Origin: Clostridia bacterium
Lineage (GTDB): Bacteria; Bacillota; Clostridia; Christensenellales; Borkfalkiaceae
Reading direction: 5' to 3'
NCBI GenBank assembly: GCA_017545865.1
Contig: JAFWXO010000024.1
Span: 1-48,565, forward strand
DNA length: 48,565 nucleotides
Shown here: positions 8,008 through 45,900 of the stretch, one piece after another
Layout: each line of letters starts with the position of its first letter
How positions within the stretch are numbered: the stretch's first letter is position 1
Notes under the pieces: model-generated
Told to the model about the DNA's origin: nothing
What the model saw: the letters and a program-made list of their open reading frames with translations, nothing else
The model's database searches: none
Program-made: the position numbers and the translations under genes

Positions 8008-8140
8008 CCTTGTCTTGCTTGCAACTAACGTCTTAAAATGGTTTTTATAGGCGTGCGACCTTGTCTTGCTTGCAACTAACGTCTTAAAATGGTTTTTATA
8101 GGCGTGCGAGCCTTGTCTTGCTTGCTTCTAACGTCTTAAA
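8008..8140. repeat. Tandem 51-bp repeats, about 2.6 copies
   Basis: Units at 8008-8058 and 8059-8109 are identical in sequence, starting CCTTGTCTTGCTTGCAACTA. A third, partial unit at 8111-8140 has CTTC in place of CAAC. The third unit is preceded by an extra G. There are no unique spacers, so this is not a CRISPR array. Confidence 0.92.
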
Positions 8141-8175
8141 AAGTTACTTTGTAAAAGCAAATATAAATTTAAAAA

Positions 8176-22933: not shown

Positions 22934-22965
22934 AAAAAAGCGTTGGCAAATTGCCAACGCTTTTT
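22934..22965 (+). terminator. Terminator of the oxidoreductase gene
   Basis: GCGTTGGC, loop AAATT, GCCAACGC (22940-22960), with A-rich and T-rich flanks. The same 21-bp hairpin occurs at 24171-24191. Confidence 0.9.
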
Positions 22966-24161: not shown

Positions 24162-24170
24162 TTAAAAATA

Positions 24171-24194
24171 GCGTTGGCAAATTGCCAACGCTTT
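24171..24194 (+). terminator. Terminator of the BspA-like lipoprotein gene
   Basis: An identical hairpin to 22940-22960 (GCGTTGGC, AAATT, GCCAACGC), with a short T tail. Confidence 0.8.
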
Positions 24195-24207
24195 AATATT
24201 TTAATAT

Positions 24208-24303
24208 TAAAAAAGAGTGGCGTTCGCCACTCTTTTTGGTTTTTTAAAATTATTTCATTGCTTTTTCGATAGCAACTGCAACTACAACCGTTGCGCCTAC
24301 CAT
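24208..24303 (-). pseudogene. Duplicated 3' end and terminator of the GGGtGRT gene (left flank of the island)
   Basis: These 96 bp match 28387-28482 with four differences, all in the coding part. On the minus strand it reads MVGATVVVAVAIEKAMK and stop, against MVGATVAVAVAIEKAMK in the intact gene, followed by the same terminator (GAGTGGC, GTTC, GCCACTC with T run). The match ends abruptly at 24303/24304. It is the left boundary of the AraC/glycyl-radical segment. Confidence 0.92.
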
Positions 24304-24333
24304 GCGCTTGGAAATTAGTTTTTCTAACAAATA

Positions 24334-25128
24334 TTATAAAGGATTTTTCAATTTTTTATATTTGCTCGGTGACATTCCAACATACTTTGCAAACTGTTTG
24401 CTGAAGTGATATTCGTCGCAAAAACCGAGGTTGTACGCAACCTCCTTGACGGTGATTTCTTCAAAACGGTCAAAATAGGACATAGCTTCCTTGATCTTAA
24501 ATTCCAATATGTACTGATGGATCGTTTTTCCGAAAGCCGCCTTGAATTTCGTTTCAGCTGTTTTTACGGATGCGTTCACCATATGCGCCAATTCGTTGTT
24601 GCTGAAAAAGTGTTCGGGGTAGCTGAGTACGGCCTTTTGAATCCTTTGCGCGACTTCGTTTTCTTTGAAACTCATTTTGTGTGAGGTCAGCTCGCAGAGC
24701 AAAAGCTCAAAGCACAGATTCGCTTTTCTTTGTTCTCCCGACAGCTTTGCGTTGACCACGTCGGCAAAAAGCTTTTTGATATTTTTGTTATTGGCGGCGT
24801 TGATATGCGTATCAATACAAGAAAGAGAGGAGTCGTTCTTTTCAAAAAGATCTCCCTCTTCGCAAGATACGTGAAAATACATGGTCTTGGTTTCCGGACG
24901 GCAGGGGGTGACACCGTAATGTGTGTTTCCCGCAAAAAGGATTAGCAAAGAATCTTCTTTCAGTTCATAAATTTGTTCGTTCTGCCCCAATGACCATTCC
25001 CCGTGGAGAAGATAAATAAAATCATGCTCCTGCATCCTGCGCTTGGGGTGTACGAACGGAACGGCATAAAAATTGATGTTTGCATCGGTTACCGTATGGA
25101 TGTGTTTTGGGGAAAAGATGTTTTTCAT
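24334..25128 (-). CDS. AraC family transcriptional regulator
   Basis: A 264-residue regulator. Residues about 10-110 are a cupin-type sensor (PFVHPKRRMQEHDFIYLLHGEWSLGQ). Residues about 165-262 form the double helix-turn-helix, with FNNELAHMVNASVKTAETKFKAAFG style first HTH and the signature FCDEYHFSKQFAKYVGMSPSKYKK in the second. GGAGG lies before the ATG and a perfect promoter lies upstream. It is divergent from the activating-enzyme and glycyl-radical genes, so it most likely controls them in response to their substrate (inference). It lies within the inserted segment. Confidence 0.93.
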   Translation of the reverse strand: MKNIFSPKHIHTVTDANINFYAVPFVHPKRRMQEHDFIYLLHGEWSLGQNEQIYELKEDSLLILFAGNTHYGVTPCRPETKTMYFHVSCEEGDLFEKNDSSLSCIDTHINAANNKNIKKLFADVVNAKLSGEQRKANLCFELLLCELTSHKMSFKENEVAQRIQKAVLSYPEHFFSNNELAHMVNASVKTAETKFKAAFGKTIHQYILEFKIKEAMSYFDRFEEITVKEVAYNLGFCDEYHFSKQFAKYVGMSPSKYKKLKNPL

Positions 25129-25152
25129 GGCATTTCCTCCTGTCTTGCTTTT

Positions 25153-25181
25153 ATTATATAACCGTCTCCTTGTTCTGTCAA
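25153..25181 (-). promoter_or_regulatory. Promoter of the AraC regulator gene
   Basis: On the minus strand: TTGACA, 17 bp, TATAAT. By contrast, the divergent activating-enzyme promoter has a TATACT -10 (25245-25250) without a good -35, as expected for a gene needing an activator. Confidence 0.85.
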
Positions 25182-25287
25182 TGATTTTCGTTTTTACACA
25201 TCTTTTTTATCCGATTGCAAATTTTGTTTTTTGAGGATTTGTTTTATACTTGATTCAAGCAATAGATTTTTTTACAGGCGGCAGATT

Positions 25288-25989
25288 ATGAAAATCTTTT
25301 TTAAGGGCTTCAACTATTCACAGGACGGTCCGGGCAACCGATTAGTCTATCATTTGCAGGGATGTAATATGCATTGTCCTTGGTGCTCCAATCCCGAGGG
25401 AATGTCATTAGCGGGCGGAACGGAATACAGTACGGAGCAAATCCTTCAGGAGTGTATCCGCAGTCGCGCAATGTTCTTTTCGGGCGGAGGCGTGACCTTT
25501 ACGGGAGGAGAAGCAACGCTGCAGTGGGAAGATCTGCTTGAGGTATTAAAGCAGCTTCGAGCAGCAAATATCCATACGGCAATAGAAACTAACGGCACAT
25601 CTCCTCATCTGCCCGAAATACAAAAGCACGTGGACTATATGATGATGGACTTTAAGCATTATGACAAAGAGGTGTTTCGGAATTTCACAGGCGCACATAT
25701 CGATCCTCTGCTTCGAAATTACGAATACTTATGCGGCATCGGCAGACAATTGCACATCCGAATCCCGCTCATCAACCATGTCAACGTCGAAGATCCCAAA
25801 GGCTTTGCGGAAATTCTTTCGCGCTTTGATACCTCAAACGTTGTATTTGAGTTTTTGCCTTATCACGAATACGGCAAGAAAAAATGGAAAACGGAATATC
25901 AAATAACGGACGGTTTTGTCAGCGCGGATCAACTGAGAAGATTTCAAAAGGTCTTTGCGGAATATCATTTAAAAACAATCCATACATAA
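25288..25989 (+). CDS. Glycyl radical enzyme activating enzyme (radical SAM)
   Basis: A 233-residue radical-SAM enzyme that installs the glycyl radical on its partner, using a 4Fe-4S cluster and SAM. The cluster cysteines are Cys26, Cys30 and Cys33 in GCNMHCPWC. The FTGGEATLQ segment is the family's SAM-binding GGE motif. The extra cysteine-rich ferredoxin-like insert of many dehydratase activases is absent, so it is a short, PflA-like form. The start at 25288 has AGGCGG in front. It is followed 11 nt later by the glycyl radical enzyme, its evident target. It is part of the inserted segment. Confidence 0.92.
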   Translation: MKIFFKGFNYSQDGPGNRLVYHLQGCNMHCPWCSNPEGMSLAGGTEYSTEQILQECIRSRAMFFSGGGVTFTGGEATLQWEDLLEVLKQLRAANIHTAIETNGTSPHLPEIQKHVDYMMMDFKHYDKEVFRNFTGAHIDPLLRNYEYLCGIGRQLHIRIPLINHVNVEDPKGFAEILSRFDTSNVVFEFLPYHEYGKKKWKTEYQITDGFVSADQLRRFQKVFAEYHLKTIHT

Positions 25990-26000
25990 GGAGAACGGCT

Positions 26001-28331
26001 ATGTTTGAAAAGATTTATAAAAGCGGTGAGATCACCGAAATGGCAAAAGCATTGTATCAGGAAGAACGCAACATCAAGCGGCTTGACGGGTGGTTTCGAA
26101 TCAAGGAGATCGAGGCAAAGGCAGAAGAAAAATATCGCGACTGTGGCAAGGAGGAAAAGAAGGCTTATCTTTTGTGCGAAGTTCTAAGGGGGATGCCTTT
26201 GTCCCTTTCCGAGAATGCCATTTTCGTCGGCACACAGAGAGATGCGTTTGCAAAGAGCTATGCGCTTATCAATCCCTCTTTTAAGGTAGAGGGTTTTTCG
26301 GGCTATTGCGATCCCACGGCAATTTATAACGACATTGAACCCAACGGAGAGTTCTCCGCTGAGAGGATAGACCGCATACGCCGATATACCGAAAACACAC
26401 CAATGGTAGACAAGTTGAACTCCACCTATGACAAGGCGGAGCAGTATACCAAGGAGGTCATCTTCTTTGTGGAGCAGGTAACGGGACACGTAATTCCCGA
26501 TTTTCGCTCGGCTTTAAAATACGGTATCGATTGCCTGATTGATGAAGCGGAGTTAAAGGATGGTGAATTTTACCGTGCGGCACGGATCGCTCTTAAGGGT
26601 GTTAAAATTCTGATCGGACGCTATTTGGATCTGATACGTGAAAAGAAAGCAACCGCCGATGCAAAACAGCTTGAAAAACTGAATATCATGGAAAAAAACC
26701 TCACGCAAATCAACGGCGGACCTGCCACCAATCTTGCCGAGGCGCTTCAGCTTTATATCCTTCTTTGGCAGATCATGTGTATTGAGCAAGCCCCGAACCC
26801 CTATGCGTTCTCCGTCGGAAATGCGGACAGAATTTTTGAGCCGTACAGAAAGAATCTAACACGCGAGGAAGCCGCAGAGCTTTTCAAACATTTCCTCGTT
26901 TTTTATAACGTAGGTGACAGAAGCTGGGCTATCTCTCAGAACGTCATCATCGGCGGCAGAGATCTTAGGGGCAACGATTTAACAAGCACTATGTCATATG
27001 CGATCCTTGATGCTTACTTTGATATGAATCTGCCCCAACCGATCCTCTCGGTCAAGCTCCACAAAAACACGCCTGACACGCTCTACCGCGAGCTGGGACG
27101 ATTCTTCTTCAGCGCGGGAGTTCTGACACCCTCTCTCTTTAACGATGACGCTATGTTTGAGGTGTTGGAGCGAAACGGAGTGGAGCGGTGCGATTTGCCC
27201 GATTACTCGATCGCAGGCTGTCAGGAGCCGCTGATCATGGGCAAGGACAACGGAAATACCACAAACAGCTGGCTCAGCCTTCCCAAGGTGCTGGAAATGG
27301 TGCTTACGGGTGGAGTTTCAAATGTGACCGGAAACAAGTTGATAGACATCGAAAAGGGGGAGCTTTCAAATATTCGTGACGCCTATTACGGGGCCCTCGA
27401 CAAGATTATGGACGCTATGTGCGAGTCGGCAAACGGCGCATCCGTCGCTCTCTCGGAACTTCGTGTTCCCTTTCTCAGCACGTTTATGGGCGGTTTGGAA
27501 TATGGCGCAGATATGCGAGATACACAAACGCAAGGAACAAAATACAACGGAAGCGGCTGTTTGGTTCACGGTCTTTCCGTCCTTGCGGATTCCTTTGTGG
27601 CTATCGACTGTTATGTGAATGACTATCCAAATGACGAAATGCATCTCTTGGATGCGCTCAAGAATAATTTTGAAGGCTACGAAGATCTTCGAAGCTATCT
27701 CCTTTCGTGCCCGAAATTCGGAAACCACGAGGAAGTCGTTGACAAAGAGGCGCGCGAGATCGCTTTGCGTGTTTCAAAAATGCTCCGCACGAAAAAGAAC
27801 TATCTCGGAAACAGCTTCCGCCCCGATTTTTCCAGCCCATCCACGCATTTGCTTTATGGCTACTGGGTAGGTGCGACACCCGACGGCAGAAAGTCACGGG
27901 ATATGCTCGGATACGGTGTCGATCCTCTTTACGGCGCGGCATCGGGCGGTCTTGGCTTCCGTATGCTTTCCGGTATGGAGCTTCCCTTTGAGGAATTCAA
28001 CGGCGGATATGCGTCTCATCTTGGCATTGATCCGAAATATTTCAAGGGCGAGAGCCTTGAGGAAAAAGGCGTGGAATTTAAGAACAATGTGATCACGCCT
28101 CTGTTTTTCAACGAATACAAAACGGGAGTCTCTCCGTTTTATCTCTACGTCAATGTAACCACGCCCGAAACGCTTCGCAAGGTTTTGGCAAACCCGAAAA
28201 AGTACGCGCCGAGTGGTGTTTATATTATGAGAATTCACGGAACGTTTGTCAATTTCCTTGACCTCTCACCCGCAATACAGAACGATATTATCACAAGACT
28301 CGACGCCGCATCCACAACGATAGGGTACTGA
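26001..28331 (+). CDS. Glycyl radical enzyme (PFL-like family), substrate unknown
   Basis: A 776-residue enzyme of the pyruvate formate-lyase-like superfamily, acting anaerobically in the cytoplasm. The active-site cysteine is Cys407 in SIAGCQEPLIMG. The CxE pattern (Cys407, Glu409) is shared with the eliminase or dehydratase branch and differs from the Cys-Cys of true PFL. The radical glycine is Gly747 in MRIHGTFVNFLDLS, 29 residues from the end; the usual motif is RV(A/S)GY, so this one is divergent. The ATG at 26001 follows AAGGAG. It is paired with the activase and an AraC regulator. A dehydratase, C-C or C-S lyase are all possible; no substrate is claimed. Confidence 0.9.
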   Translation: MFEKIYKSGEITEMAKALYQEERNIKRLDGWFRIKEIEAKAEEKYRDCGKEEKKAYLLCEVLRGMPLSLSENAIFVGTQRDAFAKSYALINPSFKVEGFSGYCDPTAIYNDIEPNGEFSAERIDRIRRYTENTPMVDKLNSTYDKAEQYTKEVIFFVEQVTGHVIPDFRSALKYGIDCLIDEAELKDGEFYRAARIALKGVKILIGRYLDLIREKKATADAKQLEKLNIMEKNLTQINGGPATNLAEALQLYILLWQIMCIEQAPNPYAFSVGNADRIFEPYRKNLTREEAAELFKHFLVFYNVGDRSWAISQNVIIGGRDLRGNDLTSTMSYAILDAYFDMNLPQPILSVKLHKNTPDTLYRELGRFFFSAGVLTPSLFNDDAMFEVLERNGVERCDLPDYSIAGCQEPLIMGKDNGNTTNSWLSLPKVLEMVLTGGVSNVTGNKLIDIEKGELSNIRDAYYGALDKIMDAMCESANGASVALSELRVPFLSTFMGGLEYGADMRDTQTQGTKYNGSGCLVHGLSVLADSFVAIDCYVNDYPNDEMHLLDALKNNFEGYEDLRSYLLSCPKFGNHEEVVDKEAREIALRVSKMLRTKKNYLGNSFRPDFSSPSTHLLYGYWVGATPDGRKSRDMLGYGVDPLYGAASGGLGFRMLSGMELPFEEFNGGYASHLGIDPKYFKGESLEEKGVEFKNNVITPLFFNEYKTGVSPFYLYVNVTTPETLRKVLANPKKYAPSGVYIMRIHGTFVNFLDLSPAIQNDIITRLDAASTTIGY

Positions 28332-28342
28332 ACGGAGGAAAT

Positions 28343-28386
28343 ATGAGGAGGGATAACAAAATGATAAACAACCCTACCTTTTATAA
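28343..28386 (+). pseudogene. Start of a further operon gene, cut off at the island boundary
   Basis: GGAGG is followed by an ATG (28343) opening MRRDNKMINNPTFYN. The frame then runs into the duplicated terminator region and stops at 28424. An alternative start is the ATG at 28361. Only the first 14-15 codons before the junction look genuine. It is probably the first codons of a gene that followed the glycyl radical enzyme in the donor, too short to identify. Confidence 0.5.
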
Positions 28387-28482
28387 TAAAAAAGAGTGGC
28401 GTTCGCCACTCTTTTTGGTTTTTTAAAATTATTTCATTGCTTTTTCAATAGCAACTGCAACAGCAACGGTTGCGCCTACCAT
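28387..28482. repeat. Right copy of the 96-bp island-flanking repeat
   Basis: Matches 24208-24303 at 92 of 96 positions. It contains the terminator and the last 18 codons of the GGGtGRT gene (16 of them fully within the conserved stretch). Confidence 0.92.
28391..28416. terminator. Terminator of the GGGtGRT operon
   Basis: GAGTGGC (28394-28400), GTTC, GCCACTC (28405-28411), with A and T runs on either side. It can act in both directions. Confidence 0.85.
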
Positions 28483-29427
28483 CGGGTTGTTACCCATACC
28501 GATAAGTCCCATCATTTCAACGTGAGCGGGAACTGAAGAAGAACCTGCGAATTGAGCGTCACCGTGCATACGACCCATAGTATCGGTCATACCGTATGAT
28601 GCAGGACCTGCAGCCATGTTGTCTGGGTGTAAAGTTCTACCAGTACCGCCACCAGAAGCAACTGAGAAGTAAGACTTGCCGTTTTCAACGCACCACTTCT
28701 TGTAAGTACCAGCAACGGGGTGTTGGAAACGAGTGGGGTTAGTGGAGTTACCGGTGATAGAAACTGAAACGTTTTCAAGTTTCATAATAGCAACGCCTTC
28801 GGGAACGTTATCTGCGCCGTAGCATTTAACTTTTGCGCGAGGACCGTCAGAATAGGGTTTTTCGTAAACTACTTTAACGGTTTCGCTATACGGATCGAAT
28901 TCAGTTTCAACGTAAGTAAAGCCGTTGATTCTGGAAATGATCATAGCCGCGTCTTTTCCAAGACCGTTAAGAATAACTCTTAAGTCTTTAGAACGAACGG
29001 TGTTAGCGTTAAGAGCGATTTTGATTGCGCCTTCAGCAGCAGCGAAAGATTCGTGACCAGCAAGGAAACAGAAACAATCAGTAGCGTCGTCTAAAAGCAT
29101 AGCGCCAAGGTTGCCGTGGCCAAGACCTACTTGGCGGTTATCAGCAACTGAGCCGGGGATACAGAAAGATTGTAAACCGATACCGATAGCTTTTGCGGCT
29201 TCGCTTGCTTTCTTGCAACCTTTTTTGATAGCAATTGCAGCGCCAACGGTGTAAGCCCAAACTGCGTTTTCAAAGCAGATAGGTTGAGTTGATCTTACGA
29301 TATCGTCACAATCAACGCCTTTTGCAAGGCAGATTTCTTTACATTCTTCAATGGAGTTAATGCCGTATTCTTTAAGTACTGCGTTGATTTTATCAACACG
29401 TCTTGAATAACCTTCAAATAATGCCAT
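28429..29427 (-). CDS. GGGtGRT family protein
   Basis: A 332-residue cytoplasmic protein of the GGGtGRT family, named from its motif, which is seen here as SGGGTGRT with GGGTGRT at residues 259-265. The C-terminal part is the most conserved (HPDNMAAGPASYGMTDTMGRMHGD and GMGNNPMVGATVAVAVAIEKAMK). The biochemical role is not established. The family is usually encoded next to a NifU-like scaffold protein, as here, with 14 nt between them, suggesting work in iron-sulfur cluster handling. Its 3' end was duplicated when the neighbouring island arrived. Confidence 0.88.
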   Translation of the reverse strand: MALFEGYSRRVDKINAVLKEYGINSIEECKEICLAKGVDCDDIVRSTQPICFENAVWAYTVGAAIAIKKGCKKASEAAKAIGIGLQSFCIPGSVADNRQVGLGHGNLGAMLLDDATDCFCFLAGHESFAAAEGAIKIALNANTVRSKDLRVILNGLGKDAAMIISRINGFTYVETEFDPYSETVKVVYEKPYSDGPRAKVKCYGADNVPEGVAIMKLENVSVSITGNSTNPTRFQHPVAGTYKKWCVENGKSYFSVASGGGTGRTLHPDNMAAGPASYGMTDTMGRMHGDAQFAGSSSVPAHVEMMGLIGMGNNPMVGATVAVAVAIEKAMK

Positions 29428-32919: not shown

Positions 32920-32971
32920 ATGTTATTATATTATATTGATAAAATTTTTGCATAATTTTGAGAGGTTTATT

Positions 32972-35900
32972 ATGGCAAAATTTAAGTTAAAATTATCAGT
33001 TTTTGCGTTGCTATTTAGCATGCTTGCGCTCTTTTCGGCGTTCTCATTTATAGCGCCGTCAAGCGTTGCAAATGCTGAAACGATGGCGGAGTTTAACTTA
33101 GTTGAAGGCGCAAGTTTGCGCTATCCTAAGGAGTTTGACGAGATTGTAGGCGGTGAAGAAATGCGCTATAAAGGTATTCGCTTTACAACTCGCGTGAACG
33201 GCGTTTGGTTTGAAAAAAATCAAAGTGAAGTTTACGAGTTCGGCACGCTCGTTTTCCCTGCGGACAGGGGCTCGGTTGACGTTTCGCTTTCGGTTAAGGA
33301 AAACAAGAACGGGTTGGATGCGATTAGGTTTATTGCCGACACTCAAGCCGTTAGAGAAAACGGCGGGTACGACGCGTCAATCGTTTACGACTGGCAAACG
33401 GTGAAACAACTTGCAATTTCGGCAAAGATGGTTTCGGCTGACGATCCGCTCATCGATGAAAAAGTTCAAGCGTTGCTTAACAAGCTTTACGTTATGGATT
33501 TAACTGCCGTTTCTTACGTTTTAACGGATAGCGGGGTAACTTATACTTCTTCCTACACGACTAATATGCTTAAAGTTGCCCTTCGCCTTATAAAAGACCC
33601 GTCTTGGAAAGAGGTTGCTTCCGAATATTTAGGTACGGTGAGTGACGTTAAGGCGTATGTTTCCAAAGAAGATAACTTGCTCGTTTTAAACGGCGTTTCC
33701 TACAACGCTTTAGACGTTACTCAAGTTATTTGCGGAAACGAGTTTTTATCTTATACGGTAAATGGTGACGATATTGAGTTTAGCGATGAATTCGTTAACG
33801 CTAATCTCGGCGAGTATTTAGACGTTTGTATTCTTGATAAAAACAACAACGTTTATTACGCTAACGTGTTGTTTGCCGACAAGGCTTTAAAAACCGCTCG
33901 AGACGTTGAGCAAGCGTTTGACTACGGCGACCAAAAAGTTGGCGATAACTTTGGTAGGAAAGACGGGGTTTACGTTTTAGCAAACGATATTGATATGACT
34001 GGCGTTACCATTAACAACAGGATGATAGGCGCAGGTCAAAGCTTTAATTCTTACGTTAGTGACGGCGCGGGCGGTTACGTTTTAGATTCGGTAACTACCA
34101 CCGCTTCAGACGTTGGGTTTGGCGGTGTTTTCGACGGTTTGGGTCATTCTATTTCTAACGTAACCGTTGAGATGGTTAACTTATCGTTAGGTCAACCTAT
34201 CGTTAGTGAAGACGGAACTAAAGCGTATAAAAACGCTCAAGGCAGTGGCTTTTTCGCTAACGTTTTACAAGGCGCTCAAATTAGAAACGTTGCGTTCGTT
34301 AACGTTTACGGCAAGGGCGCTGTAAGTAGCGGTTTAGGTTTGAACGGTCTTATCGGCACTACTTGTTACGGAACTTTAGAAAACGTTTATTTTGATATGA
34401 GCGTTAATAACGTTCACGCTCGTGGACCTTTCGCTCAATATGGCGTAGCAACACACCTTAAAAACGTTGTTGTTAACTATCCAAAAGAAAACTATACCAT
34501 TGAATCTCACCTTGAATCGGCAAAAAAATCCGACGGAACTTATTACGGCACTTACGCTTACGGTTACGGCGCGTTGTCAGGTCACAATAGCCCGATGAGT
34601 AGAAGCGCCAAGTATGAAAACGTTATAGTTGCATCTCCTATGCCCGTCAACCTTTATAAAGGCGCTGGCGGTTACGACGGTATTTCGAGCGTTACTTACG
34701 CTGAAAATGAAACCGAACTTAGAGTTTTATTCAGTTATTCCGAAGGAACTACTATTGCCGACGCTATCCTTGCGGAAAAGAGCATAGCCGAGCAATACAA
34801 AAAAACGTACCAAATTGCAGGTATTCGCCGTTACGACGATTTGGCGGGCGCGGGTAGTGATGCAACTGCTATGCAACCACTTTTAGAAACGGGCTTATTT
34901 AAAATCGTTAACGGTCAACTCGTTTGGCATAATTTAAGAGCGGAAATAACCGTTTCCGACGCCGTTGACTACGATGCCGATAGCGGTAAACTCAACACCA
35001 CCGTCTTTAACGTGAACGACGTTTTGCAAGTTTTCGTTGACGGCGTTGAATTAGCGCGTGACGTTGACTATAAAATAGTTGACGGAGAACTTCAATTTTT
35101 AACGATTCCCGTTAGGACGCATAAAACCACTAACGATCAATCAATGGCTTTCATTATCGCCACGAGTGACGCTATTTACACTTTTGATAACGTTATTTAC
35201 TGGACTATGCTTATATCCGACGGCGCTGAACTTAAATCCGCTCTCGATATAGATTACTCCACCGTTGGCACTAATTACGGTTTTTATAAACTTGTAAACG
35301 ACGTTGATATGACAGGCATATCCTATAATTACACCGCTATGACTACAAAGGTTGTCAACCAAAACTACGAGTTTGGTTTCGCCGGTGTTTTCGACGGTGA
35401 CGGGCACGCTATTAAAAACCCCTATAAATTAACTTACGGTTTGTTCGGCAACTTCTGTACGGGTGGCTCTAACTATCCTTATAACAATTCCGATATCGTT
35501 GTTAAAAACGTTGCTATAACTAACGTAACTTCGATTTCAGGCTCGCCTAACAACGCTACGAACATTACTAAAGGCGTTGTTCTTGGCAGATATTCAAACA
35601 CTAACTTAGCAAAACTCAGAATTGAAAATATTTACGTTACTTTTGCAGACGATAGTCCCGTTAACGGCTTGATAGGTATAGCAACGGGCACGTCGCTTAG
35701 GATGAACAACGTGTTCGTTGATACCGTTGGCAACACCGTTGCGCCCGGTTACAAAATGGCGGGCGTTGAATACGGCGCTACCGTTCAAGGTAAAGCGGTT
35801 GATTTTAACAACAGTTTGTATACCGACGGCGGAACTTTATTCGTTAACAACCGTTTCATCACTCCTAGTAACTCAGGAGTGGATAAAATAAACAACTTTA

Positions 35901-38900
35901 TTTCGCTTGGTAAAACGCCTATCGTATATCAATGGGGCAACGGAGCAAATTACAACAATTATTGGACTTACGATGCGACTAACGGTTGGACGATAAAGAA
36001 TAATTCTATTGCTTTTGCTAACGAATTTTACGTTGGTCTTGCAAGCAATAGGGTAGGTGACGTTCCTATTATGACGGGTATGAAGGCAGGCTTTGCCGAG
36101 ATGGTGGCGGGCAGTAATGCAACGAGCGTTGCAGGTTACGTTTGCACGGGTTGTGGCGAAACCTTCTCTAAAACCGCAGGCGCTTGCGGAAACGCAACTT
36201 GTAACGGAAAATCGCTCACTTACTTTAGCAATCTTTGGACAACGCCCTGGTCTTTCACTTGGACTGTAACTGACACTAAAACTCACGTTAACGCTAAAGA
36301 CGCTTTCGCAGGTATCGTAACCGTGTTCGCAGGCGTTTCTAAGTATGACGGCGTTGAAGAAATGAAGTCCGCTTATCAATCGGATAACACTATTTTCGAT
36401 TCCTTCTTAGGCGATAGCGGAAACGGGCTTTGGGCAGTTAGCGACGGTCAACTCGCTTGGAAAAACTTCATAAGCGAAAAATCAACCGTGAAAGTTAACG
36501 GCTCTGATTTAACTCTTAGCGTTGAACTTGAGTGTGGTGACAATATCTTTATCGAAGCGTTTAACGGCGAAAACAAGATTGAACTTAAATCGGTAACCGC
36601 TTCTAACGATAACGTTGAAGTTTTAAACGACGTTGTTATCGGTAGAAAAATAGGCTCTTCTGAAATTACCGTTAAATACGTTATTTCGGAAGTTGAGTTT
36701 ACCAAAAAGTTTACCGTATACGTCAACCACGCTTACGGCGAGTTGATAGGCGCAATTTTATCAACTTGTACCGAGCCTGGCGCAATTAGCCACTACAAGT
36801 GTTCTTGTTGCGATAAATATTTTGACACAGATTTTAACGAAATTGAAGATATTTCGGTGTTGCCGTCACACGATTACGGCGAGTGGATTTCCGCAGGAAA
36901 CGGCACTCACTATAAAGTTTGTTCGAGAGATAACTCACACGTTATAATTGAAAACTGCTTGGGCGATATCACTTGTACTCAAGGCGCGCATTGTAGCGTT
37001 TGTGGGGCGGACAACGCTCCGCTTGGTCATATCGGCGGAGAAGACACTTGTGAAATAGGCGCAATATGCGAGCGTTGTAACGTTGAATACGGCACTCCGC
37101 TCGGTCATAGTTACACCGTTAAAAACGTAAGCGACGAATACTTATTTACGGGTGCAACTTGTGAAAACAAAGCGGTATACTACTACGCGTGCGCAAACTG
37201 TGAAGGAAAGCACGAAGATTACAAATACGAGCACGGCGAAGCGTTAGGTCATAATTATAGCGTGGAAATAATTTCCGACGAATACTTATTCGCACCTGCA
37301 ACGTGTACGACCAAAGCCGTTTACTACTACGCGTGCGCAAACTGTGAAGGAAAGCACGAAGATTACAAGTTCGAGCACGGTGACGTTTTGGGTCACACGG
37401 GTGGGGAAGATACTTGTGAACTCGGCGCAATATGCTCGCGTTGTAACGTTGAATACGGTACGGCGCTCGGCCACACGGGTGGAAAGGCAAACTGCTCTCA
37501 CTATGCGGTATGTAGCCGTTGTAACGAGCATTACGGAGATTACGGTGACCACGAATACGCTTACGGCTATAACGAGTTAAATCACTGGATTAGATGTTCT
37601 GTTTGTCAAGACGAATCACTTTTCGGCACGCACTCTTACGGCGAGCAAGAACTTATAAAAACGCCCACTTGCGAAGAAGAAGGCGAGATTGCATCCGCTT
37701 GCGTTTGCGGTTATCACACGATAATTTACGTTGATAAACTTAGCCACGAATTCGGCGAATTTATTAGCGGAACTGACGCTACTTGCGTGGCTTCAGGCAC
37801 GATAGGTCACTACGTTTGCGGTACATGTGGTAAGAATTTTGACGAAAACGGCGTGTTGCTTGAAAGCACGGTAGCGCCGATTAAACACAACTTTAAAACT
37901 TTCAATCAACAAATTGCTCCCACTTGCTCGGAAACGGGTAGCAAAGGTTTCTACCATTGTGAAGATTGCGGTAAGTATTTCGACTTTGACTTAAATGAAA
38001 TTTCTTACGACAGCATTTTAATTCCCGCAACGGGCCACCTTGAAAATAGTACGGGTAGATGCGCGTGCGGTGAAGTTTACTTTGACGTTATCGGAGAAGT
38101 TACGATAGATCCGTTAAATTCTTATAGGGCAACGAGCGAATACTTTGAATTTATCTACGCAGGGCATATATACCCCGATCAAAATTCTCACAAATGGGCT
38201 TGGAGAGTAAACCGTTTCTTCGGCGAAAAGGACGATGCTCCCGTTCACGTTAGAATTCCTTCCGTTGTCTATACCGTTGACGGTAAAGAATTAGACGTTA
38301 TTTCAATCGGTAGTTATCTTTTCGACGTGACTGGCGATGTTAGCGGTTACTATTATAGCGAATACGATGCAGAAGGCAATGCAACAAGCGCCAACACTTC
38401 GCCAAAGAACGGCAACGACTCAGCAAAAGCGATACAGTCGGTTATTATTACGAACGGCATTGAATTTATAGGCTCGTCAGCGTTCGGTTCTACTGAAATT
38501 ACTGAACTTATTATCCCCGACAGCGTTCTCGGTGGTTACGGTGTGTTTGAAGGAACGATAAACGGCAGTCTTGCAACGCCGAGTGGCGCGCAGTATAACG
38601 CCGAAAACTACGCGTGGCCGTTAGAAAATATTTGTAGTGGTTGTAACCTTCTTAAAAAAGTCGTTATCGGCAGTGGTGTTGATATAATCGGCGGATATTG
38701 TTTCTACGGGTTGCCAAACCTTGTTGATATAGAGTTCGTTGTTACTGAAAATGCAGACGGAACGAAAGAAGGTGTTAAGGAAATTAGACCGAGAGCGTTT
38801 GGTCAAAACACGAGCGCAACTATCGATCCCACGTCTAACTCACAAGTAGCGGGCAGAATAGTTCTTCCCGAAACGTTAGTTTCCGTTCCCGAAGGCTCGA

Positions 38901-41900
38901 TATTACACGAACAAACGGGCAACAACGTTAGACTTTATAGGCTCTTTAACCCCGACCCCATTTATTTCTTGAACATTACCGAAGAAGAGTATAACGCTCG
39001 CCAAATCCCCGCAATTAAGCGTGATGCTATGGGCTTCCTTATCAAGGGCGAAAACGGTGAGATTTTAGATGCTAACGGCAATGAAATGCAGGTTAGACAC
39101 ACTACTACGACTAACGCTGAAACCGGCGTTGTTTCAAGAAATAAGAATTATTATACTACTTACGGTTACACCGAAGGTTGTTTCGGTCAAGCAAAGATTT
39201 ACTTCAAGGGCGAGTGGGAATACGTTGACGGCGTTCCTATGGCGAACGAAGAATTGATTGTTCCAGAAATTTCTTACGACGTGACTGACGGAACGTTCAA
39301 AGCGTTGAGCAACGGCACGTTGGTAGGGCTCACTGAGCAAGGCAAGGCGTTAACGGAAATAACCGTTCCAAGTAGGGTAAACGGCGTTGCCATAACCAAG
39401 ATCGGCTCTAATGCGTTTAAGGGCGCAAACGCTCTCACAACGCTCACGTTACCGTCAACCGTAACGGAAATTGAAGAGTTTGGCTTAGCGGATCTTAAAG
39501 CGCTTAAATCTTTAACGGTAACTTCCAACTTAGCAAGCGTTGGTAGGTTAGCGCTTAGAAACAGCGTGAACGTTACTAAACTTATCGTTAAATCTCAAAC
39601 TGCAAGCGTTTCCGATATTATCGTTATGGGCACGAGCGAGATTGCAAAAATCTTAAACGGCTTAGGCGATTTCTCGTTGAGCGTTAGTGGAGATAAATAC
39701 GTTGTTACAACGAGCGATGAAGTTTATTTCTTAGATAACCAAAAGTTCGTTTATACGGCGGAAAACAAACTCGTTGCATACCTTGGCGTTGCGAGTGAAA
39801 TCACCGTTTACGACTTTATCGTTGAGATAGGCGATAGAGTGTTTGAAAATAGAAATATCACGAAAATTACTATTCCCAACTCCGTGTTGAGAATAGGCGC
39901 GAACGCGTTTAGAAACACGTTGCTCACGGAAATTAAACTCCCTGAAAATCTTGAATACTTAGGCGAAGGTGCGCTTAGCGGTTCGGCAATTTCTTCGGTT
40001 GTTATTCCAAAAACGCTCACGGCTATTCCAAGGCTTGCGTTTAAAGATTGTTTCAACTTAACTTCAGTTGAACTTGGCGACAATATCGTTGAAATAGGCT
40101 ACGGCGCGTTTATGAACGCCGTTAAACTCGATAGTATTGAACTTCCAAGCGGCGCTCGCAATATCGGTGATTTCGCCTTCTACGGCGCAAGCGCGTTAAG
40201 AAAGGTAAAACTGCCTAAAACGATTGAAAATATCGGGCATTACGCGTTTGCTAATCTCCCGTCGATTTATAAAATCGATTACGATGGTAGCAAGAACGAT
40301 TGGCGCTTAATTTCCATTAAAAACGACTGGAAGAAGGATTCTAACGAGTTTGAAATTAGGTGTGTTGACGGACTTGGCGGATACTTGAACGTTGAACAGT
40401 CCGTTCAACTTGCAATAGGCGAATCGCACGCTATTTGGCATTATATACCAAACGCCGTTGGCGAAATAAAGTGGAGATCTAACAACGAGAACGTTGTTAC
40501 GGTAGATGCAAACGGCAAATTGCTTGCAAAAGACGTTGGCGTTACCGAAGTTGTCGTTTCGTACGGCGATTTGATCGGAATTTGTTACGTTAGCGTTTCG
40601 TACGGCGACTATCTTCCTACCGTTGAGTTTAAAAACGAACTTAACAGTGGCGTTTCGTTTGACGTTGGCTCAACTTACACTTTCAAGCCGTACGTTTCGT
40701 TTAACAGGCTTGCGTTTAACGACGCTAAGTTTAGTTATGAAGTTAGTGACGGCGGTGTTGTTTCCGTTGATGAAAACGGCAAGTTAACCGCAATTAAAAC
40801 AGGCGCTTGTCAAATAACGGTGAAAGCAACTTGGAGAAGTTACAATGCAAGCGAATATTTAACGCTTGAAAAAACGTTTAACTTGAGCGTTGTTGGCAAG
40901 GTTGAGTTTAGGTTAAACGGTAATCTTCCACTTTACACGAGCGTTTACGCGCCCGTTTCGCACAGCCCAAATCAAAACCAAACGGCGTTTAACCCGATGG
41001 TTATAGTTGACGGGGTTGCATTTGTTCCCGAAGTTTTAGTAAACTATCTTGACGGCGCAACCACCGATCATATTCAAGTTGACGTTGCAAACAAAAAACT
41101 TATCGGCTATAAACTTGGCAAAGCGGAAATTATCCTTTCGTATAATGCTTTCGGCTTAACTTTCAAATCAAAATTTATATTTGAAGTGTTGCCAAACGAA
41201 GTTGCGCTTGAAGATGAAATTAAGTTCTCCGCGGAAGACGGTTTTGCGTTTATAAACGGCGAGCAAATGACTTTAGGCGAATATTTAGGCGATCAAATCG
41301 TCAGGGCTGAAAGCCAAGGCGAGCAGTTGTTTATTGACGGTAACGGCGCTGTATTAGGCGTTAACTGGGCAGATTACGCTTTAAGGTCAACAACCATAGT
41401 GGCGTATTCGGAACTTGCAAAATACACGATCCCCGTTTCCGTTGCAAAATGGTATATCAACGAAGAAAGTGATTTCGTTTCGGCGTTAGATCTTGGCTCT
41501 CAAGATTCAAGAGAATTAACCGTTTACGGCTATCACGAACTTATAAACAACGTTGATTTAGTAGGCGTTACCCTTTACAACAACTCAGTTTCAACCGGGA
41601 CTTACGTTTTTGCAGGAACGTTCAACGGCAACGGCTTTGCTATTAAAAATGCAAACTTGAATATGCAACGTTCGAGCAATAAATATATAACCCAAGGCTT
41701 GTTCGGAACGATTGATTATACCGCAACCGTTAAAAACGTTGCCTTTATCAATCTTGAAGGAACGGCTTCTAATGGGGCGGACGTTGGCTTGAACTCACCG
41801 CTAGCATACCTTGTTTACGGCAAGATAGAAAACGTTCACGTTCAAATCGGCAAAAACAACTATAACAACCGTGGCGCGATTGCGAACTACCGCTCGTCTG

Positions 41901-42400
41901 CCGTGATTAGGAACTTTGTTGTTTACGAAGAGCGAGAAGAAGATTACGAGTTTAGTTACGAGCAAGTTATCGTTGGCGCAACTTGTCAATACGCGTGGGG
42001 TTACGGCTCGCTTGGTGGCTCGATAGGTGAATTAAAGTCGGCAAGCGTTGAAAACGTTTTCGTTATCTCTAAAAACCCCCTTCACTTATCAACGAGTGGT
42101 GGCGGCGCGTCATGCTTAGAAAATCAAACGGGAACGTTCACTTACGGCGAAAATGAAACTGAGGTTTGGTTTGAGTTTGCAGTTTGGTCGCAAGGCAATA
42201 ATCCTATATTAAACCCGACCGTTCAAAACACTTTGGGCAACAAAACCGCAGTTGTAGAAAACGTTCGCCGTTACGATAGTTTTGGCGATATGGCTCTTGA
42301 TACGAGCGATAGAAACGTTGAAAAAACGCAAGCCCTTTTAGATACCGGCTTGTGGATAAAGAACGCAAGCGGAGAAATCGTTTGGAACTCCGTTCAGTAA
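32972..42400 (+). CDS. Giant secreted multidomain protein (BspA-like repeats, Cys-rich repeats, Ig-like domains)
   Basis: A 3142-residue exported protein with a signal peptide (about 35 residues, ending SVANA). Modules in order: N-terminal domain (about 40-210) shared with the next giant gene; beta-helix-like modules A (about 307-655) and B (about 656-1166, ending in a four-cysteine motif near 1053-1073); an Ig-like domain (about 1168-1255); cysteine-rich repeats (about 1255-1703); a BspA-like leucine-rich region (about 1705-2466, closing IDYDGSKNDWRLI); Big_2-type Ig-like domains (about 2470-2743); and a second beta-helix-like module to the C-terminus. No LPXTG or membrane anchor is seen, so attachment is unclear. 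GAGAGG precedes the ATG at 32972, chosen over 32936. Role unknown, probably adhesion or matrix binding. Confidence 0.88.
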   Translation: MAKFKLKLSVFALLFSMLALFSAFSFIAPSSVANAETMAEFNLVEGASLRYPKEFDEIVGGEEMRYKGIRFTTRVNGVWFEKNQSEVYEFGTLVFPADRGSVDVSLSVKENKNGLDAIRFIADTQAVRENGGYDASIVYDWQTVKQLAISAKMVSADDPLIDEKVQALLNKLYVMDLTAVSYVLTDSGVTYTSSYTTNMLKVALRLIKDPSWKEVASEYLGTVSDVKAYVSKEDNLLVLNGVSYNALDVTQVICGNEFLSYTVNGDDIEFSDEFVNANLGEYLDVCILDKNNNVYYANVLFADKALKTARDVEQAFDYGDQKVGDNFGRKDGVYVLANDIDMTGVTINNRMIGAGQSFNSYVSDGAGGYVLDSVTTTASDVGFGGVFDGLGHSISNVTVEMVNLSLGQPIVSEDGTKAYKNAQGSGFFANVLQGAQIRNVAFVNVYGKGAVSSGLGLNGLIGTTCYGTLENVYFDMSVNNVHARGPFAQYGVATHLKNVVVNYPKENYTIESHLESAKKSDGTYYGTYAYGYGALSGHNSPMSRSAKYENVIVASPMPVNLYKGAGGYDGISSVTYAENETELRVLFSYSEGTTIADAILAEKSIAEQYKKTYQIAGIRRYDDLAGAGSDATAMQPLLETGLFKIVNGQLVWHNLRAEITVSDAVDYDADSGKLNTTVFNVNDVLQVFVDGVELARDVDYKIVDGELQFLTIPVRTHKTTNDQSMAFIIATSDAIYTFDNVIYWTMLISDGAELKSALDIDYSTVGTNYGFYKLVNDVDMTGISYNYTAMTTKVVNQNYEFGFAGVFDGDGHAIKNPYKLTYGLFGNFCTGGSNYPYNNSDIVVKNVAITNVTSISGSPNNATNITKGVVLGRYSNTNLAKLRIENIYVTFADDSPVNGLIGIATGTSLRMNNVFVDTVGNTVAPGYKMAGVEYGATVQGKAVDFNNSLYTDGGTLFVNNRFITPSNSGVDKINNFISLGKTPIVYQWGNGANYNNYWTYDATNGWTIKNNSIAFANEFYVGLASNRVGDVPIMTGMKAGFAEMVAGSNATSVAGYVCTGCGETFSKTAGACGNATCNGKSLTYFSNLWTTPWSFTWTVTDTKTHVNAKDAFAGIVTVFAGVSKYDGVEEMKSAYQSDNTIFDSFLGDSGNGLWAVSDGQLAWKNFISEKSTVKVNGSDLTLSVELECGDNIFIEAFNGENKIELKSVTASNDNVEVLNDVVIGRKIGSSEITVKYVISEVEFTKKFTVYVNHAYGELIGAILSTCTEPGAISHYKCSCCDKYFDTDFNEIEDISVLPSHDYGEWISAGNGTHYKVCSRDNSHVIIENCLGDITCTQGAHCSVCGADNAPLGHIGGEDTCEIGAICERCNVEYGTPLGHSYTVKNVSDEYLFTGATCENKAVYYYACANCEGKHEDYKYEHGEALGHNYSVEIISDEYLFAPATCTTKAVYYYACANCEGKHEDYKFEHGDVLGHTGGEDTCELGAICSRCNVEYGTALGHTGGKANCSHYAVCSRCNEHYGDYGDHEYAYGYNELNHWIRCSVCQDESLFGTHSYGEQELIKTPTCEEEGEIASACVCGYHTIIYVDKLSHEFGEFISGTDATCVASGTIGHYVCGTCGKNFDENGVLLESTVAPIKHNFKTFNQQIAPTCSETGSKGFYHCEDCGKYFDFDLNEISYDSILIPATGHLENSTGRCACGEVYFDVIGEVTIDPLNSYRATSEYFEFIYAGHIYPDQNSHKWAWRVNRFFGEKDDAPVHVRIPSVVYTVDGKELDVISIGSYLFDVTGDVSGYYYSEYDAEGNATSANTSPKNGNDSAKAIQSVIITNGIEFIGSSAFGSTEITELIIPDSVLGGYGVFEGTINGSLATPSGAQYNAENYAWPLENICSGCNLLKKVVIGSGVDIIGGYCFYGLPNLVDIEFVVTENADGTKEGVKEIRPRAFGQNTSATIDPTSNSQVAGRIVLPETLVSVPEGSILHEQTGNNVRLYRLFNPDPIYFLNITEEEYNARQIPAIKRDAMGFLIKGENGEILDANGNEMQVRHTTTTNAETGVVSRNKNYYTTYGYTEGCFGQAKIYFKGEWEYVDGVPMANEELIVPEISYDVTDGTFKALSNGTLVGLTEQGKALTEITVPSRVNGVAITKIGSNAFKGANALTTLTLPSTVTEIEEFGLADLKALKSLTVTSNLASVGRLALRNSVNVTKLIVKSQTASVSDIIVMGTSEIAKILNGLGDFSLSVSGDKYVVTTSDEVYFLDNQKFVYTAENKLVAYLGVASEITVYDFIVEIGDRVFENRNITKITIPNSVLRIGANAFRNTLLTEIKLPENLEYLGEGALSGSAISSVVIPKTLTAIPRLAFKDCFNLTSVELGDNIVEIGYGAFMNAVKLDSIELPSGARNIGDFAFYGASALRKVKLPKTIENIGHYAFANLPSIYKIDYDGSKNDWRLISIKNDWKKDSNEFEIRCVDGLGGYLNVEQSVQLAIGESHAIWHYIPNAVGEIKWRSNNENVVTVDANGKLLAKDVGVTEVVVSYGDLIGICYVSVSYGDYLPTVEFKNELNSGVSFDVGSTYTFKPYVSFNRLAFNDAKFSYEVSDGGVVSVDENGKLTAIKTGACQITVKATWRSYNASEYLTLEKTFNLSVVGKVEFRLNGNLPLYTSVYAPVSHSPNQNQTAFNPMVIVDGVAFVPEVLVNYLDGATTDHIQVDVANKKLIGYKLGKAEIILSYNAFGLTFKSKFIFEVLPNEVALEDEIKFSAEDGFAFINGEQMTLGEYLGDQIVRAESQGEQLFIDGNGAVLGVNWADYALRSTTIVAYSELAKYTIPVSVAKWYINEESDFVSALDLGSQDSRELTVYGYHELINNVDLVGVTLYNNSVSTGTYVFAGTFNGNGFAIKNANLNMQRSSNKYITQGLFGTIDYTATVKNVAFINLEGTASNGADVGLNSPLAYLVYGKIENVHVQIGKNNYNNRGAIANYRSSAVIRNFVVYEEREEDYEFSYEQVIVGATCQYAWGYGSLGGSIGELKSASVENVFVISKNPLHLSTSGGGASCLENQTGTFTYGENETEVWFEFAVWSQGNNPILNPTVQNTLGNKTAVVENVRRYDSFGDMALDTSDRNVEKTQALLDTGLWIKNASGEIVWNSVQ
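37178..37368 (+). repeat. Internal 144-bp-period coding repeat in the Cys-rich region
   Basis: A 47-nt stretch starting TACTACTACGCGTGCGCAAA at 37178 recurs exactly at 37322, 144 bp (48 codons) later. It marks recent duplication of one Cys-rich unit (YYYACANCEGKHEDYK). Confidence 0.9.
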
Positions 42401-42931: not shown

Positions 42932-45900
42932 ATGAAAAAGTTTACTTTTAAATCAATTTCAGTAAAAGTTTTAACTCTCGCTCTTGCGTTATGCTTAGGC
43001 GTTGCGGTTGTTAGTTTCTTTGGCGGTAAAAAAGCCGTTGCTGAAGAAATTGCAGTTGACCCAAGTTTTGCACTCACTCAAGGCGCATCTATTCGTGACG
43101 GGGCTTCCGCAGGCGACAATTATTACGGTCTTCGCTTTGAAACCAAGTTCAATCAAGAGTGGCTTGACGCTAACCCAAGTTCAACCTATTCTTTCGGAAC
43201 GCTTATTTTCCCAAGCACCGAACTTGGCAAATTCTCCGCAGAGGAAAATCCCACCCAAAACAAGGAAAACACCAAAGCGATTAAGTATATCCACACAGCA
43301 AACGAAGAGGTTAACGGGGAAGATACGTATTACGCATCGGTAGTGTATAGCGCAGAATACGTTGAGCAAATTATTCCGACGATATATCCCGCGGTTACTA
43401 ATCCCAACCAAACTCAAATAGAAACCGTTCTTAACAACTTATACGTTTTGGATATGACGGCTATTTCTTACGCTATCTTGGATAACGGCTCTATCGTTTA
43501 CACCGAGCCTTATTCAGACAGTATGATTAAAGTTGCCGCTCGCCTTGTTAGTGACGAAGAATATGCTAATCTTGCAAAAAGATATATCAAGGGCGAAGTT
43601 ACCTTTGGCGACGCTTACGTTTCTAAGGAAGACGGTATCTTAGTTGTTGATAGTTTAGAAGAAGAATTCGTTGCTGGCAGTTACAATCAAGTTATTTTCT
43701 CTAACCAAAACCTTAAAGCGGGCGTTGATTACAACGTCGTTGACGGCGATATTGACTTTGCTGACGAATTCGTTGCTAACCACATTGGCGAATATCACGA
43801 AGTTTATTTCTTCAACACCAACGGCGACCTTTTAGTCGTTGAGGTTTTCTTTGCAGACAAAGCGTTAAATAGCGCTCAAGACGTTTACAATACCTTTAGG
43901 CGTGGCGTTCAACAACTTGGTGAAACTTGGTCGAGAAACGATAATTCTTACGTTTTAACTCAAGACGTTGATATGACTGGCTTTACGGTTAAAAACAATG
44001 CGATTGCGGCAGGAAGTTCAGTTAGTCGTTATAATGATAATGGTGACGGAACTTATACTCTTATAGATACTACCACAACTACCTCTGACTTTGGTTATGG
44101 CGGTGTGTTTGACGGTCGTGGTCACGTAATCTCAAACGTGACTATGGACTTAACTAACGCAGGTTTAGGTGGTCTACATATTATTAAACCAGACGGTACA
44201 ACAGGTTGGATAAACACTCAATCGTTTGGTTTCTTTACAAACCTTTTAAAAGGTGGCGCAGTTAGAAACGTTGCGTTTATCAACCTTAAAGATAACGGAA
44301 CTTTAACAAATGGTTACGGTTTAACTGGTCTTTTAGGCAATTACAGTGACGGCGTTTTAGAAAACGTTTACGTTGATTTTAACGTTAACACTATCGTTAC
44401 TCGTGGTGCTTTCGCTCAATATGGAACACCCGCAACTGTTAAAAACGTTGTTATTAACTTCCCAAGAGCAGAAGGTTATAGCATTGAATCACACCTTGAG
44501 GGTGGCAAAGCAGTGTTCTCGTATGGTAGCGGTTCGTTTGGTGGTCAAAATAGCCCGCTCACGTTAACAGCCAACTACGAAAACGTTTTCATCTCATCTC
44601 CGATGCCTATTAACTTCTACACTAGCAATGCAAGTATTGCTAATTTACAATCGGTTACTTACGGTGAAAACGAAACTAAACTTCACTATGATTTTGGTGG
44701 CTTATTTGCAGGTTTAACCCTTGAAGAAGCTCTCGCGCTTGAAACTGGCGCGCAAAAGAACAAAGTTGTAAAAGGTGTTCGCCGTTACGACAATATGGCT
44801 GAAATGGCTAAAGATAGCGTTGCTAAAGACGCTCTTCTTGCAACGGGTTACTTTAAACTTGTTGAAGGTCAACTCGTATGGCACAACCAAACCTTACAAA
44901 AACAAATGGCAAACGCCGTTGATTTCGATGCGAGTGCAAACGTTTTATACGCTACTGATTTTGAGTTAAAAGACGTTAAAAAGGTTTACGTTGACAATGT
45001 TGAATATTCCTTCACAACTGAAAACGGCGCGCTTGAAATTTTAGGCGTTCCTACAAAGACACATAGAGAAACTACAAATCAACAAATAAAAGTTGTAGTT
45101 GTAACGAGTGAAATTTCTTACATTTACGACACTACTTACTGGACAATGCTTATTGACGCTCCAGAAGAACTTAAATCTGCGCTTTGCCAAAGTTTTGCAA
45201 CTTCCAACTTCGGTTTCTACAAACTTATTGCAAACGTTGACTTAAATACTACTACTTACTCTCATTCTGATATCGCAAGTTACGTAAAGAACCAAAACAA
45301 CGAATATGCGTTTGCTGGTATCTTTGACGGTAACGGCTTTGCAATTAAGAACGTTAAAAATTCAGCGTACGGTATATTCGGTAACTTTACGGTTGGTGCT
45401 TCCAACTATCCTGCTGGAAACACGACTATTAAGAACTTAGCGATTGTAAACTATTATGCGCCGACTACAGGTACTACTGGTAACTATGCAGTTCTCGGTA
45501 AATACTCAACTATGAACGCTAGACAACTCGTGCTTGAAAATCTTTACGTTTCTTACGCAGATAACAGTTACGTTCACGGCTTAATCGGTTATGGTCAAGA
45601 AAGAGTTAAGATGAACAACGTTCTTATTGATACGAACGGCAACACTATTGACCCTGGTAATGCTGCACTTGCAAATAAAGAATACGGTGATGACGTTGCT
45701 GGTAAAGCACACGTTATTAATGCAACTAATAATACTGACGGTGGTACTTTATTTGGTAACTTTAGATTGTGGGGTAAGGTTGCAGAATCTAACGCACTTT
45801 TAACTAACGTAATCTCGTATGGTAAAACCCCCGTTGTATATCAACATAACGCAGGTAGCAACTATTCGTACTTTATGAATTACGATGCTACGGCTGGTAA

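Follow-up and report, generated by a model that had tools for sequence, protein, structure and literature searches.

A glycyl radical enzyme island at the 3′ end of a GGGtGRT gene is a probable integrase-less remnant of an integrative element

Introduction

Genomic islands can gather at the end of a single host gene. Among the ssrA islands of Dehalococcoides, 16 with and 15 without an integration module have been noted (PMC3146451), the dusA-specific islands have an integrase family that targets a conserved protein gene (PMC4482086), and both SGI1 at thdF and the cis-mobilizable elements (CIMEs) are found in tandem (PMC5704250). Here we describe an island of three genes, among them a gene for a glycyl radical enzyme (GRE), which is located at the 3′ end of a GGGtGRT gene in a Clostridia bacterium of the family Borkfalkiaceae. 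The stretch analyzed, termed the window, is a single contig of 48,565 bp (JAFWXO010000024.1) from a 1.59-Mb assembly of 33 contigs. Based on comparisons with related genomes, we propose that the island very probably descends from a tyrosine-recombinase integrative element with the GGGtGRT gene as its bacterial attachment site (attB), and that it represents a trimmed remnant without an integrase.

Results

A direct repeat of the target gene's end is present at both borders of the island, and the GGGtGRT gene is kept whole: one copy belongs to the intact gene, and the one on the far side is orphaned (Table 1). An alignment gave 95.8% identity over 96 nt (92% over 111 nt in another comparison). 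All four substitutions fall within the final 54 coding nt, stop codon included, and the 42 nt 3′ of the stop, which contain the terminator, are identical. In the orphaned copy, two of these substitutions replace Ala by Val, as expected where selection no longer acts on that part. Searching the genome itself with a 95-nt repeat query revealed no further match of that length; three other matches correspond to 28–47 nt of terminator-like DNA. A chance repeat is ruled out by this search and by the control on other open reading frame (ORF) 3′ ends described below, as is a scattered repeat, which the original prediction for this locus had named as an observation that would speak against it.

The island holds only three genes, for an AraC-type regulator, a radical-SAM activase and the GRE, without any genes for integration or transfer. 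The closest solved relative of the GRE is the glycerol dehydratase 1r8w (E 4.6e-56). The original prediction, made from the sequence alone, was borne out with regard to the repeat and its four coding substitutions, the identity of the three genes and the lack of an integrase in gene content and domain scan. Its estimate of a GC content nearer 50% fits the GRE gene (48%) and applies less to the other two (42% and 45%), compared with 35–45% for ten neighboring genes. At third codon positions, the GC fraction is 0.49–0.56 in the island genes versus 0.34–0.48 in these neighbors. The mean log relative synonymous codon usage is –0.16 to –0.26 versus +0.08 to +0.36, with a reference set that consists of eight of the ten neighbors themselves; the remaining two score +0.08 and +0.14. 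The codon usage of the island is foreign rather than native.

Table 1. Features of the island and its target gene in the window
Feature	Position	Strand	Basis
Inserted island, 4.1 kb, without integrase	24304..28386	.	gene content, domain scan, match to L098
AraC-type regulator	24334..25128	-	PF12833, E 1.9e-16
Radical-SAM activase; CNMHCPWC motif at residue 26	25288..25989	+	PF04055, E 6e-20; motif
GRE, PFL/glycerol-dehydratase type; GCQEP at 406, RIHG at 744	26001..28331	+	PF02901, E 1.1e-98
Start of isomerase-like ORF, probable remnant after deletions	28340..28384	+	63-nt match to L098:5956-6018
Probable deletion scar: ...AAGCGCAT joined to GGTAGGCGC	24299..24306	.	comparison with L098
GGGtGRT gene (target; 3′ end is the insertion site)	28429..29427	-	PF14057, E 2.7e-194
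3′ repeat, gene-attached copy: final 54 coding nt and terminator	28387..28482	-	DNA self-comparison, alignment
3′ repeat, orphaned copy; begins 54 nt ahead of stop-codon end	24208..24303	-	alignment, comparison with L098

A distant relative has the same island at this position. When GTDB was scanned with the GRE, nine loci were obtained, one of which, L098 (JAGANE010000079.1), stems from the metagenome-assembled genome (MAG) RGIG8595, obtained from water deer cecum and labelled Clostridia. It harbors the three genes in the same order with 94.7% nucleotide identity over 4046 nt, placed between a GGGtGRT gene (partial, at the contig end) and a GGGtGRT 3′ fragment. At the other eight loci, no GGGtGRT was found within the stretch covered. 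Synonymous divergence (dS) between the window and L098 is 0.31 for the AraC gene, 0.09 for the activase gene and 0.24 for the GRE gene, compared with 1.67 for GGGtGRT (130 shared codons), which indicates horizontal transfer of the island. The fragmentation of the window genome into 33 contigs might suggest an assembly artefact or a local tandem duplication. With the same island and layout present in another MAG, and a repeat that is shorter than a usual read, we give this explanation hardly any weight.

The comparison with L098 also suggests what the window has lost. In L098, an FGGY kinase gene and a whole isomerase-like gene follow 3′ of the GRE gene, and a third GGGtGRT fragment separates the GRE cassette from a GH92 gene. 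This GH92 gene forms a cassette of its own (L098:7465-9429) between GGGtGRT and another 3′ fragment, and cassettes can therefore stack at this site. The far end of the L098 island is intact, with a promoter-like arm followed by a copy of about 94 nt: the letters of AATTTCCAAGCGCAT are kept, about 200 nt of arm follow, and the copy starts 94 nt before the end of the stop codon. In the window, AATTTCCAAGCGCAT is followed directly by a gene copy entered 54 nt before that point, and the AAGCGCAT found at the scar is also present in L098, where it runs on into the about 200 nt of arm. On the near side of the window island, the start of the isomerase-like ORF lies between the GRE stop and the terminator, and the kinase gene is missing. 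The window has probably lost the arm by deletion, as well as about 40 nt of what was once a longer fragment. Since L098 has the longer copy and the arm, deletions are the best reading of the repeat length in the window; insertions in L098 are less likely.

We next asked how often such copies occur at GGGtGRT genes of related genomes. In a set of nine genomes from the genus, the window genome included, six contain GGGtGRT, with 84–92% identity between the genes at the DNA level. Five of these six loci show a second partial 3′ copy downstream, at a distance of 4.1 kb in the window, 2.5 kb in G001, 1.6 kb in G003, 5.4 kb in G004 and 1.0 kb in G005; G006 has none. The cargo is unlike in all five. 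Named by reading their sequences, the four other cargoes are a large ORF with an SGNH-like gene, a leucine-rich-type repeat protein, AraC genes with a hydrolase-like gene and others, and a pyruvyl-transferase-like gene. The three-gene set of the window is found at the site in none of the other five genus loci, contrary to a second possibility raised by the original prediction, that relatives might all carry these genes here with native codon usage.

In the whole family, GGGtGRT was found in 240 of 301 genomes, and at least 17 of the 240 carry a displaced 3′ copy. Thirteen of these were identified by protein fragments, that is, a full gene plus a 3′ fragment (G001, G003, G036, G089, G091, G115, G127, G153, G158, G163, G233, G238 and G281), and four by DNA comparison (the window, G004, G005 and G061). 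The number is a lower bound because short copies escape the protein search and downstream DNA was covered for only 60 further genomes. The 13 were accepted from 29 genomes with two protein matches. G196 was considered uncertain because its fragment touches a contig end, and 15 were dropped: G279, which has two full-length genes, and 14 whose genes are broken by contig ends or which are unclear for other reasons (G021, G032, G062, G066, G072, G096, G109, G185, G187, G193, G200, G207, G215 and G282). In genus g8, gene and fragment are located on different contigs in eight of nine genomes, and on one contig only in G127.

As a control, all ORFs of at least 200 amino acids in the loci used for DNA self-comparison (66, three of them too short: G152, G055 and G115) were subjected to one procedure that looks for a same-strand 3′ copy within 12 kb. 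Such a copy follows 7 of 53 GGGtGRT 3′ ends and 0 of 399 other ORF 3′ ends (Fisher p 2e-7); outside the window's own genus, it follows 2 of 47 GGGtGRT 3′ ends (p 0.011). The control took 53 of the 66 GGGtGRT loci, the rest being lost to short downstream DNA or to the ORF picker; among those absent is G089, for which DNA self-comparison does give a copy. The 3′ end of GGGtGRT is a recurrent insertion point.

Two classes of copies could be distinguished by their start points. Class A copies begin at CGTWGARATGATGGG in G003 (from the window's own genus), G036, G089 and one L098 fragment, and the junction of a second L098 fragment reads CACAGAGATGATGGG; judged by eye, the copy in G004 fits this start in decayed form. 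All five class A junctions (G003, G036, G089 and both of L098) are preceded by an arm of the form CGWTATAATGT-N18-20-GATGTGTY, and arm and junction recur beside other, unrelated cargoes. The pattern TATAATGTN{18,20}GATGTGTY was found in 4 of 301 family genomes, always at a GGGtGRT locus, and its reversed control in none; three of the four had served to derive it, and the independent one is G096, with the arm pattern about 1.04 kb after GGGtGRT. In class B, which represents genus g8, all nine second copies start at GGGCAACAACCC, a sequence that in several g8 genes lies within the inverted repeat CATGGG-7 nt-CCCATG. By eye, most g8 copies, with the exception of G233, also have a common arm that is peculiar to them. 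A constant crossover point and conserved arms were seen in relatives, including L098, and are missing in the window.

The original prediction had held that homologous recombination through a carried gene fragment would explain the locus equally well. In such a scenario, a circle or linear DNA with a GGGtGRT 3′ fragment and cargo would have crossed over with the gene without any recombinase. The within-genome copies, which are mostly of host type, the varying copy length (about 23 to 360 nt of gene) and the well-conserved gene DNA within the genus would agree with this, but it leaves the first pick-up of the fragment unexplained and does not account for junctions that are fixed in several genera, for an arm conserved beside unrelated cargo, or for integrases exactly at the site (see below). 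Because conserved arms and fixed junctions adjoin unrelated cargo, we favor site-specific recombination and regard homologous recombination as an unlikely origin of the island rather than an equal one.

For restriction-modification units in Helicobacter, insertion with long target duplication by another joining mechanism has been described. The methylation or restriction-like genes of some islands, and the host-type copies that flank them on either side, would agree with such an origin, but arms and integrases are element-borne and the junctions recur at the same nucleotide, which makes this origin very improbable here. A duplicate derived from the target only, without element ends, is not what the relatives show; the window itself keeps no arm.

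Integrases are found at the junction in some relatives. The 154-amino-acid N-terminal part of an integrase from G089 (PF13102), used as a query, matched 5 of 301 genomes. In the three strong matches (G089, G029 and G196, from two genera), the integrase lies on the same strand as GGGtGRT and begins exactly 164 nt after its last sense codon. Among the g3 genes listed, five of the same C-terminal type end in EEAMKA, while those of G089 and G196 end in EEAMK with element DNA (TAAGCC) directly adjoining; the element start in G029 (g5) is the same. In genus g8, a different tyrosine integrase of about 440 amino acids begins 233–279 nt after the GGGtGRT stop and reads towards the gene (G163, G281 and G091, where it is cut by a contig end). 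The integrases of the two classes are not treated as one enzyme because they are only distantly related (at best 45% identity over 33 amino acids).

An intact enzyme was detected in IMG/VR. Contig IMGVR_UViG_3300018878_002442, the one arm-pattern contig of this database that was read and that its integrase confirmed, contains the arm, a 30-codon fragment, a hairpin with GACACATC/GATGTGTC and an intact tyrosine integrase of 314 amino acids. About 7.8 kb away, a second module consists of a 37-codon fragment and an intact integrase of 312 amino acids that is 69% identical to the first. No GGGtGRT body was detected in the tested parts of the contig, which may be a free element or a chromosomal array. 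Beyond the second module lies an ORF with a weak match to a PHROG tail protein (E 1.2e-5).

The cargo of relatives includes defense genes. G281 encodes Gabija GajA and GajB (E 7e-175 and 3e-98), which end about 300 nt ahead of the GGGtGRT 3′ fragment (L091:10593-13296). An AbiLi-like ATPase is found in G115, a type I methyltransferase in G233, and a cytosine methylase with a helicase-like protein in G061. In G115, G233 and G281, the cargo shares a contig with the fragment but not with the gene, and its location inside the island is therefore likely rather than certain. At the same site, G036 harbors an island of about 32 kb that has transport-like genes, an intact arm and junction, and no integrase (G036:C16:18665-51582; L082, L083). 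Beyond the window's genus, cargo is not always different: the g8 genomes G153, G163 and G281 have Ku-like and ligase-like genes in common beside the fragment. These genes, named from reading, are positioned upstream of the displaced fragment (L092:7406-9183, L093:632-2409 and L091:6845-8601), and the Ku-like protein of one g8 island has no PADLOC match.

The window contains further repeats. Near-identical 30-nt terminator hairpins (97%) are located at 22934-22963 and 24165-24194, 3′ of a Gfo/Idh gene and a leucine-rich-repeat lipoprotein gene; this pair next door to the island is perhaps due to a small copy-and-insert event. Giant surface-like ORFs at 32936-42400 and about 43950-47600 have repeats of 41–114 nt in common, several at a spacing of about 9.95–9.98 kb, which suggests duplication of a long gene. 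A 51-nt tandem repeat at 8008-8161 has three units, of which two are identical and the third matches at 67%.

Discussion

The observations from relatives allow us to propose how the island came to lie where it does. Most likely, a recombinase carried by some of the relatives' gene packages places such packages at this site. The attB would span the final ~94 nt of GGGtGRT, from the codons VEMMG to the stop, and a tyrosine recombinase would join to it an attachment site of the element (attP) composed of the arm, a ~94-nt core derived from the host gene, and the element start. An element of this kind brings its own copy of the gene end, which leaves the gene intact and results in another 3′ copy at the far side. 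The promoter-like arm faces the junction and would drive the integrase only in the circle. The element in the window would be derelict: an integrase was either never carried or later lost, and deletions in a presumed order would have removed the right arm, about 40 nt of the far copy, the kinase gene and most of the isomerase-like gene. We consider the island a remnant rather than a full member because an integrase is present only in relatives at the same site, and we infer that this particular island was inserted by a recombinase, be it its own or that of another element. The assignment by the original prediction to an insertion at a protein gene's 3′ end, with the end restored, is supported by the recurrence with different cargo, the same island in another lineage, and integrase-bearing elements with the same junction.

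Several observations weigh against this interpretation. Gene content, domain scan and integrase search revealed no integrase in the window island, and pattern search and sequence inspection no arm in the window. The class A integrases at host loci are truncated (G089, G029) or run into a contig end (G196), the weak integrase relatives in G279 and G217 are not at any GGGtGRT locus seen, the only PF00589 match in the L098 genome is not a class A integrase, and no integrase lies beside the g8 island of G127, which is complete on one contig. Not all copies start at the class junctions (–359 in G001, –29 in G061, –22 in G005), and G096 shows no clear second copy 3′ of its arm. In IMG/VR, the arm pattern matches at least 80 stretches, most of them probably by chance, making it a weak detector in viral contigs; in the second IMG/VR module the arm is partial, with only GATGTGT clearly kept. 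No empty site was found in the genus: of argG, Gfo/Idh and GH2, sought as empty-site markers in 68 loci, argG occurs in five and never directly 3′ of GGGtGRT. Finally, copies inside one genome are mostly host-type even if the cargo comes from another lineage, so that the fragment cannot simply have been inherited along with the cargo. This is a real difficulty, for which one must assume either that the repeats underwent gene conversion or that the most recent transfer took place within the genus; later homologous exchange between repeats is likely.

Our findings point to a protein-coding gene as an integration hotspot in a family of bacteria with small genomes, which would explain how catabolic modules (GRE, GH92) and defense systems (Gabija, methyltransferases) are swapped at one address. 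With a matched attB, arm and intact integrase now in hand, this can be tested directly. As a more speculative extension, which we put forward only tentatively, integrase-less metabolic and defense cassettes may make up a family-wide system. Each cassette would end in a conserved promoter-bearing arm and a GGGtGRT 3′ fragment, a single protein-coding gene would serve as the collection point, and integrases from prophages or similar elements would carry the cassettes in trans from one genus to another. Arrays like that of L098 (gene - GH92 cassette - fragment - GRE cassette - fragment) would be the outcome. Among the papers listed for GGGtGRT or PF14057, none concerns integration as judged by its title and the opening of its abstract, and within these searches we did not find this target gene in print.

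SGI1 has its own integrase and other hosts than the window island. Its target is likewise the 3′ end of a protein gene, and it forms tandem arrays (PMC5704250). The dusA-specific islands share with our locus an integrase family that targets a conserved protein gene, and the island supplies the gene end while the original is displaced; they differ in using the 5′ end of dusA and 21-bp attachment sequences, and in having an integrase in all islands examined there (PMC4482086). CIMEs resemble the window island in lacking integrase and transfer genes, in their attachment-site-like flanking repeats and in their tandem location with other elements (PMC5704250); among our loci, a tandem layout was seen in L098 and the IMG/VR contig only. 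By definition, CIMEs keep both attL and attR, whereas comparison with L098 indicates that the window island has lost its right arm together with about 40 nt of fragment. The loss of this arm keeps us from classing the island as a CIME, and the lack of an integrase from regarding it as a complete integrative element. The Dehalococcoides ssrA islands are similar in that many tandem islands, part of them without an integration module, are found at one gene's 3′ end, with a repeat of this end bounding each island; they differ by their tmRNA target, 20-bp repeat and serine recombinase, compared with a protein gene, about 94 nt, often including a terminator, and tyrosine recombinases here (PMC3146451). 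The island appears to work in the manner of the ssrA islands and of CIMEs in tandem, and represents a known kind of system.

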